Virus record (IMG/VR): IMGVR_UViG_3300042556_002127
Coordinates: 1 to 47,383 of that record
Length of the DNA stretch: 47,383 nt
Direction: 5' to 3' (one strand)
From: a virus
In this document: positions 1,253 through 47,383 of the stretch, in pieces
Numbering within the stretch: the first letter of the stretch is position 1
Layout: each line of letters starts with the position of its first letter
Position numbers and translations under genes: made by a program
Notes under the pieces: model-generated
The model's database searches: none
Told to the model about the DNA's origin: nothing
What the model saw: the letters and a program-made list of their open reading frames with translations, nothing else

Positions 1253-1849
1253 CTAGGTCGAGCCCGCGTCGATGGTCGATGTGCCTGACGTGCTCGGAGC
1301 GGGGGAGTCCGCATGGGACAGGGACTGCCGCGCTAGCACGAACACCGAGGTAGCCGGCAGAGGCGCAAAGCCCTCGACGAAAGGGCCGAGCTTACTCCGC
1401 GCGTACGCCACCGCTCCGATCTCGTAGACCGCCTCGACGGACACGCATTCGCAGAGGTAGTCGAGCGCGTCGCTGTCAAGCGACGGCCTGCTGTCGCCGC
1501 TTTCGCGCGGGAAGATGGCCTCTGTCTTCCACGACAGCGGCGGCGCTACCTCAGCGCGCACCAGGGCGTAGCTGATGGCGCGCAGCCACCGAGACTCCGC
1601 CGTGGGCAAGCTGTCGCACTGGGCGCGCTCGTAGGCCCGCAGAGGGCGCAGCACGAAGACGCTCGCGCGCTTGCCCGCGACAAAGCGGAGCAGCGCTTTA
1701 TCGCGCGTGCCGTAGCGGATATCGCTGACACGCTCGCCCGTCGCGCCGAAATGCGCGTCGAAGTCGCGGCCCATCGCGGCGCGGTCAATCGCAGGGTCGA
1801 AGCTGACGTAGCACTCGAGGTGCTTCGTCGGGTCTGTCTCGTGCGTCAT
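1253..1849 (-). CDS. Tail assembly chaperone, upstream (G) frame
   Basis: This 198-aa protein starts at ATG 1849 with GAGGAG about 9 nt upstream. It follows the tail-tube gene and precedes the second chaperone frame and the tape measure. In tailed phages this slot holds a chaperone that coats the tape measure during tail assembly. Codons 156-157 (CCT TTC at 1384-1379), with the preceding C, form the slippery heptamer CCCTTTC in the X XXY YYZ phase, so some ribosomes could move into the downstream frame. The last 40 residues of the unshifted product are Ser/Thr/Pro-rich. I recognise no domain, so the assignment is positional. Confidence 0.6.
   Translation of the reverse strand: MTHETDPTKHLECYVSFDPAIDRAAMGRDFDAHFGATGERVSDIRYGTRDKALLRFVAGKRASVFVLRPLRAYERAQCDSLPTAESRWLRAISYALVRAEVAPPLSWKTEAIFPRESGDSRPSLDSDALDYLCECVSVEAVYEIGAVAYARSKLGPFVEGFAPLPATSVFVLARQSLSHADSPAPSTSGTSTIDAGST
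1379..1385 (-). promoter_or_regulatory. Candidate -1 ribosomal frameshift heptamer (tail chaperones)
   Basis: On the minus strand the bases read C CCT TTC in the frame of gene 1253-1849. Slipping one base back gives CCC TTT, which keeps both Pro and Phe pairing. The -1 frame then stays open to 870. The same heptamer, in the same phase, occurs at the end of the portal gene (10660-10666). Confidence 0.6.
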
Positions 1850-9676: not shown

Positions 9677-10438
9677 TTACCTCACAAAAGACGACGCGCC
9701 GAAGCCGGGTGTCATCTCGAAACCGGCAGGGATGCTGGTGATGACCTGCAAGCCCTCGTCGTCGAGTTCTTCCTGCGACAGCGTGGTGATGACGCAGCGA
9801 CACTGGAATCCAGCGGGAGGCGAGAGGTTGGCGAACGTCGCGTCATCCGCTCGCCAGACCTTGCGATTCATCGGAGCGTGCTTGGCTCTCACGCGATTGT
9901 CCTGCGCCGTGAGCCACTGCCTATACGGGCGAGCCTCGAGCACGTCAGGGTCGTTCATCTGCGTCCAGCGTCCTGCGCCGTAGGCCGTGGCGACGTTGGT
10001 GCGGTAAACGTTCTCGAGGTAGCTGGGGTCTTGCGGCGCGATGCCGAGCGTAATGGTCTGATCTTCCATCGCTCGCCGGAAGTCGCGTAACGTGTTGCCC
10101 TCTTCAAGCGTGCGCTGAATCTCCTCGACGGCGCGGCGCGAGATGACGTCGAGCTGCTCGTCGGTGGCAAGCGCAGCGCGGCGACGATACGCGCGCAGCA
10201 CTTCCTCGAGGATGGCCGGGTCGCCTCCGCGCTCGCGCCAGAAGGCCACCGCTTCTGCGAATGGCATCTTGAGGAATGCGGGCCGCAGGTCGATGGCGAG
10301 CTGCCGCTGCGCGCCCTGCGGGTCGAGCTCCACGAGGCGCACGAACATCTGACCCGCGAGGTCGCTCTTGACGCTGGCTTCGTAAATCAGCGCTTCAAGG
10401 TCGGGGTCGCCCTTGAACGCAGCCACCGCCGCAGCCAC
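9677..10438 (-). CDS. MuF-like head morphogenesis protein (probably expressed as a -1 extension of portal)
   Basis: The protein has a classical MuF domain: YRTNVATAYGAGRW, then ARPYRQWLTAQDNRVRAKHA, and the conserved PPAGFQCRCVI near the C-terminus. MuF proteins are minor head proteins needed for assembly or DNA ejection. The first usable start is GTG 10438 (253 aa), but the same frame stays open upstream to 10693 without an ATG, GTG or TTG. That upstream stretch reads like protein (for example DVAGLGAWDASTVDEVGDF, then VGRPYVV-like and FTPVREAI). The frame is -1 to portal, and portal carries CCCTTTC at 10660-10666, exactly where this coding begins. The likely main product is therefore a 795-aa portal-MuF fusion, with or without a separate short MuF. 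Confidence 0.8.
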   Translation of the reverse strand: MAAAVAAFKGDPDLEALIYEASVKSDLAGQMFVRLVELDPQGAQRQLAIDLRPAFLKMPFAEAVAFWRERGGDPAILEEVLRAYRRRAALATDEQLDVISRRAVEEIQRTLEEGNTLRDFRRAMEDQTITLGIAPQDPSYLENVYRTNVATAYGAGRWTQMNDPDVLEARPYRQWLTAQDNRVRAKHAPMNRKVWRADDATFANLSPPAGFQCRCVITTLSQEELDDEGLQVITSIPAGFEMTPGFGASSFVR

Positions 10439-10506
10439 AGCGTCCGCGCCACCTAGCGCCGCGGCTGCGATGGCCTCGCGTACGGGCGTGAAGCGGACGA
10501 CGCCCT

Positions 10507-12063
10507 CTAGCGTGGTTTCTGCGGCGACGACGTAGGGTCGCCCGATGACTGCGCGTACGCGCGCCTGATCGGCCTCGTCGCTGAGAGCGAGGACGTCTGC
10601 GAAGTCACCGACCTCGTCGACAGTGCTGGCATCCCATGCGCCGAGCCCGGCGACGTCGAGAAAGGGCGCTCCGCGGACGCACCTCCGAGCGTGTCAGCGG
10701 GCGTCACGGCCTCAACCGATGGCGAGCCCGTCTCGACTGGCGGCGCGGCCTCAAAGGGCAGCGGAGAGCCCGGAGGCGCAGGCGCCAACTGAATCTTCGC
10801 GATGTTCTCGCCGCCGTCCTCGACGCTCCACGCGGGCAGGCCCAGCGAGGCGCGAATCTCGTTGACCTTGACGCTGCCGGTGTCGATCGCGTCGCGCGTG
10901 ATCGGCAGTGAATCATCGAAGAGCGTCTCGATGACCGGCAGCGGGATATCGGCGCGGCGAAGGTTGTAGTACGCAAGCCAGCGCACGACGTCGCGCGTGA
11001 TCGAGCCCCACATCAGCGTCGAGTCGAGCTTGCTGTTTTCGAGCCGCACGCCGTCGCGCGTCTCCGTGCTCGAGCGCGAGCCATTCGCGCCGCTGAGGTA
11101 GAGGTCAGGACTGACGCCGAGCGCGAGGAAAAGCTCCTCGTTCAGCGACGCGCGAAGCTCTTTCCAGACGCCCGTCGAGCCTGCGCCTGCAGGGTCGATG
11201 ATCTTGATATCCGACGTGCCGCTCGTGACACCGACGCTGTCGGCCGTGAGCTGCTGGAGGTCGTCGAGGATGCGCTGCCGCTGCGCGCTATCCGACGACG
11301 CCGCCATCTGCGCGAGCACGAGCGGGTTGCCGAATCTCTCCGCGCCGATCAACCAGAATGTCCAAACATTCCTTTTGAAAAGCCAGTAAAAGACCGCCGC
11401 GAGGAAGTCGCCTTGATCCATCGGCCGGCCGGGGTCTGTCCACGGAACGTGCGTGAGAAACTTCGCGGGATAGTTGACCGTCGAATACCACTGATAGTCG
11501 AAGTCTCTAACCTCGAGCGTCCAGTCCTGCGCATATCGCAAGTTGCGCGTCTGCACCGGCACCGGCTGCGGCATCCACGCGCCGCCGCGCCGCGACCACA
11601 CCAGCTCGTGACACGAGATGCCCATGCCGATGGCGTCGAGGACGCGCATCAGGAACGTCTCGCGCGCCTCGATGCTGGTCAGCCATTCCTTGGTCAGCTG
11701 CACCAGCTCTTCGGCAGCGCCGCGCATCTCGGGCGCGACGTCGTCGGCCATGCGCACGGCGAAGCCGCGGCCAGCCACCGACGAGCGGCGCGTCGAGTAC
11801 GCGCGACGCACGACGGGGTCACGGCGCATCTGCGTCGCCATGTCCGCCCAGTACTCATAGTTGCCGAAGTCAAGCTCGCGCAGCGCCGTGCTGATGCGCC
11901 CCGGCGACACCGGCTGTAGCGCGCGCCCGCTGATGGCCGACAGCGATTGCGGCCTGATGACGCGGCCCATCTCAGGGATGCGCGTGACCGTGCCCATCGG
12001 CTCGACGGGCGCAGCTGCGGCGACGGTGGCCGCTGACTGCGTGCGTGGCTTGCGAGTGGTCAT
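10507..12063 (-). CDS. Portal protein, DUF935 family (Mu gp29-like)
   Basis: This 518-aa frame encodes the DUF935 portal ring through which DNA is packaged. Recognisable stretches are IPEMGRVIRPQSL and DMATQMRRDPVVRRAYSTRR, the MGISCHELVW and WYSTVNYPAKFLTHVPW region, FLAAVFYWLFKRN, AERFGNPLVL, and the C-terminal SLGLPAW. It follows the large terminase by one base. The last ~50 unshifted residues after ASAERPF (STSPGSAHGMPALST...) look unlike protein and read as an out-of-frame tail, whereas the -1 frame from the same point leads into MuF. So the 518-aa form ends in a non-native-looking tail, and a frameshift product is likely. Confidence 0.9.
   Translation of the reverse strand: MTTRKPRTQSAATVAAAAPVEPMGTVTRIPEMGRVIRPQSLSAISGRALQPVSPGRISTALRELDFGNYEYWADMATQMRRDPVVRRAYSTRRSSVAGRGFAVRMADDVAPEMRGAAEELVQLTKEWLTSIEARETFLMRVLDAIGMGISCHELVWSRRGGAWMPQPVPVQTRNLRYAQDWTLEVRDFDYQWYSTVNYPAKFLTHVPWTDPGRPMDQGDFLAAVFYWLFKRNVWTFWLIGAERFGNPLVLAQMAASSDSAQRQRILDDLQQLTADSVGVTSGTSDIKIIDPAGAGSTGVWKELRASLNEELFLALGVSPDLYLSGANGSRSSTETRDGVRLENSKLDSTLMWGSITRDVVRWLAYYNLRRADIPLPVIETLFDDSLPITRDAIDTGSVKVNEIRASLGLPAWSVEDGGENIAKIQLAPAPPGSPLPFEAAPPVETGSPSVEAVTPADTLGGASAERPFSTSPGSAHGMPALSTRSVTSQTSSLSATRPIRRAYAQSSGDPTSSPQKPR
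10660..10666 (-). promoter_or_regulatory. Candidate -1 frameshift heptamer joining portal to MuF
   Basis: On the minus strand C CCT TTC occurs in the portal frame (codons 467-468, Pro-Phe). Slipping back one base gives CCC TTT, keeping Pro-Phe pairing, and moves into the MuF frame (next codon CTC). That frame is closed only about 28 bases upstream (TGA at 10694-10696) and lacks start codons until GTG 10438. A real indel in the assembly would look the same, but the shift lands on a canonical slippery heptamer. Confidence 0.65.
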
Positions 12064-46533: not shown

Positions 46534-47383
46534 CACATCCCTCGCCCGAGACGACCGTGCGCCTCGCTGATCATGCCGCTGATATCGCGCCCGAGCTGCG
46601 CGCGGTCTGCAGCGTACACGAGCCCGCTGCTGCCCCAGTTGATGACGACCGTGGTGCCTGCGCCCTCAGCCGTGCCAGGCGTCAGCGCTGGCCCGCCAGT
46701 GGCCGCTGCGGGCGCGCCACCGCCTCCACCGCCACCGCCAAACGCGCCGCTCGATGCGCCGACGACGCCTGCTGCGACGCCGACAGCGGCCCACTTTGCA
46801 GCCGCCGCGAAGTGACCAGCCGCTGTCGGTGAGCCGACCGCGAGCGCGCTGATGCCGAGCGCGGTCTGCTTCAAGCCCTGCACGATGGCCTCCGTGGTCA
46901 GCGCGCGTGCGACGTCGCGCACCATGCCGAGCGCGGCTTCGCCCATGCTCTTAGAGCCGTCGAGCCACGCGGAAACGCTGGACGAGAACGCGCTTTCGAG
47001 CGCGCTAAACACCGCGTCGTTGATCTCCTGCATCCGTGCCGCTTGCTCTTCAGCAAGACGCAGCTGCTCGTCCATGCGCTCTTTTTCGAGGCGCGCGCGT
47101 TCTTCATTCAACTGCGTCGCGATCTCAATTGAACGGTCCTTCGCGGCGCTCTGCTCTTCGATTTCGAGCTCACGCATCATGCGTCGAACGTCGGCCTCTG
47201 TCGCCATGTCCTCCTCGAGACGCGCGAGCTCACGCTGCGCAGCCTCCGAGTCGTAACCCATCGGCGTCGTCGCTGGCGCTTCGGCTGCTGCGGCACGACC
47301 ACCGCCACCGCGTCCTCCCGGCGTAGCGCCAATGCGGCCCTGACCTTCGGCCTCCTCGACCATTGCAGCGATTGCGGCGCGAC
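46533..47383 (-). CDS. Tape measure protein, C-terminal part (joins 1-866)
   Basis: This is the second part of the 529-aa tape measure; in the linear window it runs from the right edge to TGA 46533. It has a long charged coiled coil (DMATEADVRRMMRELEIEEQ; QLNEERARLEKERMDEQLRL), then an Ala/Ser-rich helical region with ALTTEAIVQGLKQTALGIS. A Gly-rich stretch (FGGGGGGGGAPAAATGG) follows before the end VYAADRAQLGRDISGMISEA. The last 127 bases duplicate the start of the window, so the 47257-47383 part is counted once. See 1-866 for the start. Confidence 0.8.
   Translation of the reverse strand, partial: RAAIAAMVEEAEGQGRIGATPGGRGGGGRAAAAEAPATTPMGYDSEAAQRELARLEEDMATEADVRRMMRELEIEEQSAAKDRSIEIATQLNEERARLEKERMDEQLRLAEEQAARMQEINDAVFSALESAFSSSVSAWLDGSKSMGEAALGMVRDVARALTTEAIVQGLKQTALGISALAVGSPTAAGHFAAAAKWAAVGVAAGVVGASSGAFGGGGGGGGAPAAATGGPALTPGTAEGAGTTVVINWGSSGLVYAADRAQLGRDISGMISEAHGRLGRGM
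47257..47383. repeat. Terminal direct repeat, right copy
   Basis: Identical to 1-127. It marks the closure point of the circular map, inside the tape-measure gene. Confidence 0.95.

Follow-up and report, generated by a model that had tools for sequence, protein, structure and literature searches.

The window, i.e., the whole stretch of 47,383 nt of viral DNA that was analyzed, carries a portal gene on its minus strand, followed in the −1 frame by coding sequence for a MuF-type minor head protein (Table 1). The frame-0 protein matched PF06074 (Portal_Mu) above the cut-off with an E-value of 2.2e-47 and PHROG 113 (portal) with an E-value of 3.5e-39. A portal profile that included relatives matched the solved portals 8rka (E 5e-114) and 9khx (E 1e-97). 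AlphaFold models of the frame-0 and −1 frame products reached a mean pLDDT of 53–54, which was too poor for fold searches.

Table 1. Features of the portal–MuF junction, in window coordinates.
Feature	Position	Strand	Remarks
Portal ORF, frame 0	10507..12063	-	518 aa; portal core plus 50-aa out-of-frame tail
Upstream stop TGA of the MuF (−1) frame	10694..10696	-	5' limit for any shift
Shine-Dalgarno-like GGAGGTG	10680..10686	-	Probable upstream stimulator, about 14 nt 5' of the heptamer; 15 nt separate GGAGG from the heptamer
Slippery heptamer C_CCT_TTC	10660..10666	-	Putative −1 shift site; tandem Pro-Phe codons
−1 frame extension	9677..10660	-	327 aa plus stop; would be joined to the portal by slippage
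Frame-0 tail 3' of the heptamer	10507..10659	-	Coded out of phase
Conserved block CTCGGCG..TGGGATGCC	10628..10645	-	Nucleotide-level conservation; possible downstream element
Portal C-terminal domain, −1 frame	10320..10505 (approximate)	-	Aligned with outgroup portal C-termini
MuF domain proper	9788..10123	-	PF04233 Phage_Mu_F, E 1e-16; PHROG 220 minor head protein, E 3e-35

Across the heptamer, the portal frame reads CGC CCT TTC (heptamer at 10666–10660, minus strand), and both position and phase of CCCTTTC were as originally predicted. The open −1 frame begins at 10693 and ends with the TAA at 9679–9677. The first ATG, GTG or TTG after the upstream TGA is the GTG at 10438, which bears out the claim that the MuF frame is free of start codons up to there. 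If the two frames are joined after Phe 468 with a step back of one base, a fusion of 468 + 327 = 795 aa with the junction ERPFLDVAGL results; length and peptide thus agreed with those proposed before. In-frame X_XXY_YYZ heptamers are rare, with five in the 4,891 codons of 13 window ORFs, and therefore only about 0.06 would be expected by chance in the shift-permissive stretch of about 62 codons. An ordinary ORF caller would begin MuF at GTG 10438 (9677–10438, minus strand) and drop the portal C-terminal part.

Regarding the remainder of the genome, an exact direct repeat of 127 nt is present at the window ends (1–127 and 47257–47383), and a tape-measure-like ORF that runs off one end carries on in this repeated sequence at the opposite end. 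The window probably represents an entire genome of 47,256 bp that is circular or circularly permuted. Just upstream of the tape-measure-like ORF, an ORF of 198 aa (1253–1849, minus strand) contains another in-frame CCCTTTC at 1385–1379, where the −1 frame is open to 873. This heptamer could be the usual tail-chaperone frameshift site. The sequence directly after it is not convincingly coding, so the true chaperone site may lie elsewhere.

A search of IMG/VR yielded 48 close portal relatives, and a search with the MuF-frame alignment added relatives at 58–65% identity (L099, L100 and L101). Scanning host genome contigs for relatives revealed none. The junction could be read in 51 sequences, i.e., the window and 50 contigs from 41 metagenomes, representing 33 distinct junctions. 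CCCTTTC and the frame offset were identical in 51 of 51 sequences, at identities down to 58%, and the relatives had an open −1 frame, which was conserved starting at the heptamer. The preceding codon varied (CGC, TCC or CTC), as did the following codon in the −1 reading (CTC, CCA or CCC); thus, the invariant seven bases stand out from their surroundings. In 49 loci, both limits of the shift-permissive stretch, namely the last upstream −1-frame stop and the first downstream frame-0 stop, were visible. The stretch was as short as 79 nt, and CCCTTTC was the only X_XXY_YYZ heptamer within it that all 49 loci had in common.

The comparison with related phages that had been proposed as a check also bears on the possibility that a continuous portal–MuF gene merely suffered a one-base indel at 10650–10690 in sequencing or assembly. 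Apart from the offset itself, nothing speaks for such an error. The stops flanking the junction sit at differing positions among the relatives, and the same offset and heptamer recur in 50 contigs from 41 metagenomes; assembly error is thereby excluded, and its probability is considered negligible. Relatives with two genes and a real MuF start had been named as evidence that would count against the frameshift. However, a conserved start with a ribosome-binding site, as expected for a separate MuF (PF04233) gene, was present in no relative sharing the junction.

In some relatives (L032, L033, L036, L038 and L042–L044), about 100 residues are added in the portal linker directly before the shift site. 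The insert contains GAVGQGFVPA, followed by a Pro/Ala-rich stretch, and L101 carries a related insert.

Synonymous variation was analyzed on a codon alignment in the fusion reading, comprising 34 distinct loci and 760 windows of 20 codons. The portal core was left out of the dN/dS results owing to misaligned starts. The minimum of synonymous variation among the 760 windows, 0.15 of the average, was found in a window that spans the junction. Over a region reaching from about 10 codons 5' to 14 codons 3' of the junction, synonymous variation amounted to 0.05–0.5 of the average, and it was back above average by about codon 30 downstream, just before the end of the portal ORF in most relatives. 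In the −1 frame, dN/dS was 0.4–0.6 inside the overlap and 0.12 just past it, i.e., this frame is under purifying selection. The frame-0 tail showed a dN/dS of 0.9–1.0, and its length among relatives ranged from 16 to 52 aa, in line with its earlier description as a low-information tail. Judged from these values, the tail is probably under no selection as a protein. The synonymous trough and the purifying selection on the −1 frame point to a functional recoding site as two independent signatures. The overlap of two protein frames could be partly behind the nucleotide constraint near the site.

The heptamer is preceded by the Shine-Dalgarno-like (SD-like) sequence GGAGGTG, for which a duplex of about −15 kcal/mol with an assumed host anti-SD was calculated. 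This is far stronger than the −4.7 to −7.4 kcal/mol obtained for the starts of five real window genes and is matched by only about 0.1% of the 18-mers in the window. Variants (GG[AG]GGTG, GGGGGG or GGGAGTG) occurred at fixed spacing in all relatives; the element was weaker, at −6.9 kcal/mol, in the most distant relative, L101. Since no −1-frame start codon follows it, GGAGGTG is not a hidden ribosome-binding site of MuF, and it probably acts as an upstream frameshift stimulator. The SD-like element of dnaX has a spacing of 10 nt, which is shorter than that at the portal–MuF site. The latter spacing falls inside the interval of 6–17 nt before the second motif base for which Sharma and colleagues list GGNGG, GGAG and similar sequences as experimentally stimulatory (PMC4066793). 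In the same study, C_CC.U_UU.C is reported to give high-level frameshifting in E. coli, where it belongs to the efficient class H_HH.U_UU.Y (PMC4066793).

Downstream of the heptamer, RNA structure was searched for, as had been suggested; a stem-loop or pseudoknot is common at this place but not obligatory in bacteria. The block listed in Table 1 was strongly conserved, being invariant in 33 of 33 distinct junction sequences and having the lowest synonymous variation (0.05–0.16, relative to the average), but no consistent stem was found. No conserved stem was present across the relatives, and single-sequence folds differed between them. The RNAalifold covariation term of only −0.2 gave no clear sign of covariation among stems without pseudoknots, which the search covered. 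The block is possibly an unrecognized stimulator. It includes the codon GAT, which accounts for 18% of the Asp codons in the window genes.

The two frames might also be joined by transcriptional slippage instead of ribosomal frameshifting, and the same fusion would then be expected. Polymerase slippage usually requires longer homopolymer runs. CCCTTTC consists merely of two runs of three, and the conserved SD-like element suits ribosomal shifting; transcriptional slippage is therefore regarded as extremely improbable.

Alternatively, MuF may have a translation start of its own, internal or non-standard, used by re-initiation or coupling after the portal, in which case the heptamer would be incidental. 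Candidate starts do exist: an ATG at residue 107 of the −1 frame (QMF) occurred in six of six loci scanned, allowing indels, and an ATG at residue 134 (KMPF) occurred in most relatives, both near the beginning of Mu's own MuF. However, these ATGs are essentially without an SD sequence (−1.7 to −4.2 kcal/mol), and the strong SD-like sequence has no −1-frame start codon after it. Moreover, the portal C-terminal segment upstream of the ATGs, although conserved as protein, would go untranslated, and neither the heptamer nor the synonymous trough would be explained. Independent translation of MuF is thus considered very unlikely.

This C-terminal segment changes how the two products are to be viewed. 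Residues ~55–115 of the −1 frame align with the portal C-termini of Mu, Mushuvirus and the YPCBV-1, Pelagibaca and Thiobacimonas phages, and MuF proper starts at about residue 130, where these outgroup phages start their separate MuF. The C-terminal domain of the Mu-type portal, which lies in the frame of the core in the outgroups, is here found in the −1 frame. The original prediction that the −1 frame codes for protein was correct, but this frame does not lead straight into MuF: its first ~115–130 residues include the portal C-terminal domain. For the same reason, the unshifted product is not the plain portal that had been assumed, but rather a C-terminally truncated one. With the domain in the −1 frame, the shift would choose between a truncated portal and a complete portal–MuF fusion.

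In Mu, Mushuvirus and the YPCBV-1, Pelagibaca and Thiobacimonas phages, a single frame covers the portal with its C-terminus, and MuF has an ORF of its own. Likewise, the IMG/VR outgroups L164–L174 (25–31% identity in MuF) have an intact single-frame portal and a separate MuF ORF, and in most cases the outgroup MuF ORF overlaps the portal. Since the outgroups show the two-gene state, the fused and offset arrangement is derived. Sequence comparison suggests two steps, one in which portal and MuF came to be continuous and one in which a −1 shift, located in the linker that separates the portal core from the C-terminal domain, divided the joint.

As a further alternative, an ancestral indel may have split the portal, with slippage restoring the needed full-length portal–MuF protein and the truncated portal being waste. 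This alternative has the frameshift mechanism in common with the best explanation given below. Both the frame-0 tail, with its variable length and lack of protein-level selection, and the location of the portal's own C-terminal domain in the −1 frame are consistent with it. However, although reversion by a single base would be trivial, offset and site were kept in all relatives, including those at 58–65% identity. This suggests that an output of two products is selected, and the waste-product alternative is considered unlikely.

Conservation, selection, the SD-like element and the start-less MuF frame, all read from the DNA, strongly support the central claim of the original prediction, programmed −1 ribosomal frameshifting at CCCTTTC that yields a portal–MuF fusion. 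MuF is very probably made only upon −1 slippage in the portal gene of this Mu-related phage family. The best explanation, which is held with high confidence, is that a single start codon serves both products and that slippage at C_CCU_UUC gives the 795-aa fusion, a truncated portal being made otherwise. A ribosome reading the portal would encounter the SD-like sequence and then C_CCU_UUC, where, given the assumed host tRNAs, in a fraction of ribosomes tRNA-Pro and tRNA-Phe would re-pair one base back (CCU to CCC and UUC to UUU). The slipped ribosomes would add the portal C-terminal domain and MuF in the −1 frame to complete the 795-aa chain. Most ribosomes would terminate 16–52 codons later, releasing a portal without the C-terminal domain.

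Both products would be made in a fixed ratio and may co-assemble in the dodecamer, with few MuF copies held covalently on the portal and their number set by the slippage rate. We infer that the frameshift ratio fixes the MuF copy number per 12-mer portal. More tentatively, and with a chance slightly below even, the dodecamers are mixed, most subunits being without the C-terminal domain and a few having the domain and a covalent MuF; in that case, the number of MuF copies entering the head would be determined by the ribosome, which would also break the 12-fold symmetry of the ring. If real, frameshifting in the portal gene would be a simple way of bringing a small, set number of internal proteins, which are possibly ejected, into each virion via the unique portal vertex, and the asymmetric portal ring that it predicts could be visible to cryo-EM. 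Since standard gene callers cut MuF short here or place its start too far downstream, as at GTG 10438, such fusions may be missed in other metagenomic phages, and similar contigs are likely misannotated at the MuF start.

In tailed phages, frameshifting is known for tail chaperones, major capsid proteins and tail tube proteins. No precedent for frameshifting in a portal gene was found in the openly accessible literature, and the word "portal" is absent from the accessible part of a recoding review (PMC5009743). The portal–MuF site resembles the lambda G/GT tail assembly chaperones and their analogues (Xu et al. 2004) in that an X_XXY_YYZ heptamer lies towards the 3' end of a gene for a phage structural protein and two N-co-terminal proteins are made in a set ratio, as presumed here; in contrast, the lambda system acts on a tail chaperone encoded ahead of the tape measure gene and not on a portal. 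T3/T7 gene 10, Lactobacillus phage A2, Listeria phage PSA and SPP1 17.1* likewise possess a C-terminal extension made by frameshifting. Their extensions are often Ig-like domains, whereas here the portal C-terminal domain and MuF would be added. A minority of the virion subunits is extended in such major capsid and tail tube proteins (PMC5009743, PMC6316719). A slippery heptamer preceded by a probable SD-like stimulator is shared with the dnaX and IS3-family signals, but the latter usually add a downstream stem-loop or pseudoknot; here, no conserved stem was found in folds without pseudoknots.

With Mu H/F (gp29/gp30) and the JBD30-type phages, of which the JBD30 portal has been solved with its crown, wing, stem and clip domains (PMC11445458), the locus shares a homologous portal (PF06074), MuF (PF04233) and the gene order. 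In contrast to the locus studied here, these phages have portal and MuF as two genes that overlap briefly, and in Mu MuF has its own start with a ribosome-binding site. In SPP1, few copies of the MuF protein gp7 are taken into the procapsid, through binding to the portal gp6 (PMC6316719). A portal-delivered MuF inside the head in few copies may be common to both, but gp6 and gp7 are encoded by separate genes and targeting is non-covalent; the covalent link proposed here would replace it. Microbacterium phages of clusters EA and EB encode in-frame portal–MuF fusions (PMC7302621), and one polypeptide holds portal and MuF in these phages as in the fusion proposed here. Unlike the present locus, theirs is a single in-frame gene with no frameshift reported, and thus every portal subunit should carry MuF. 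Frameshifting and portal–MuF fusion are two known tricks, which would be combined here at a gene for which this appears to be undescribed.
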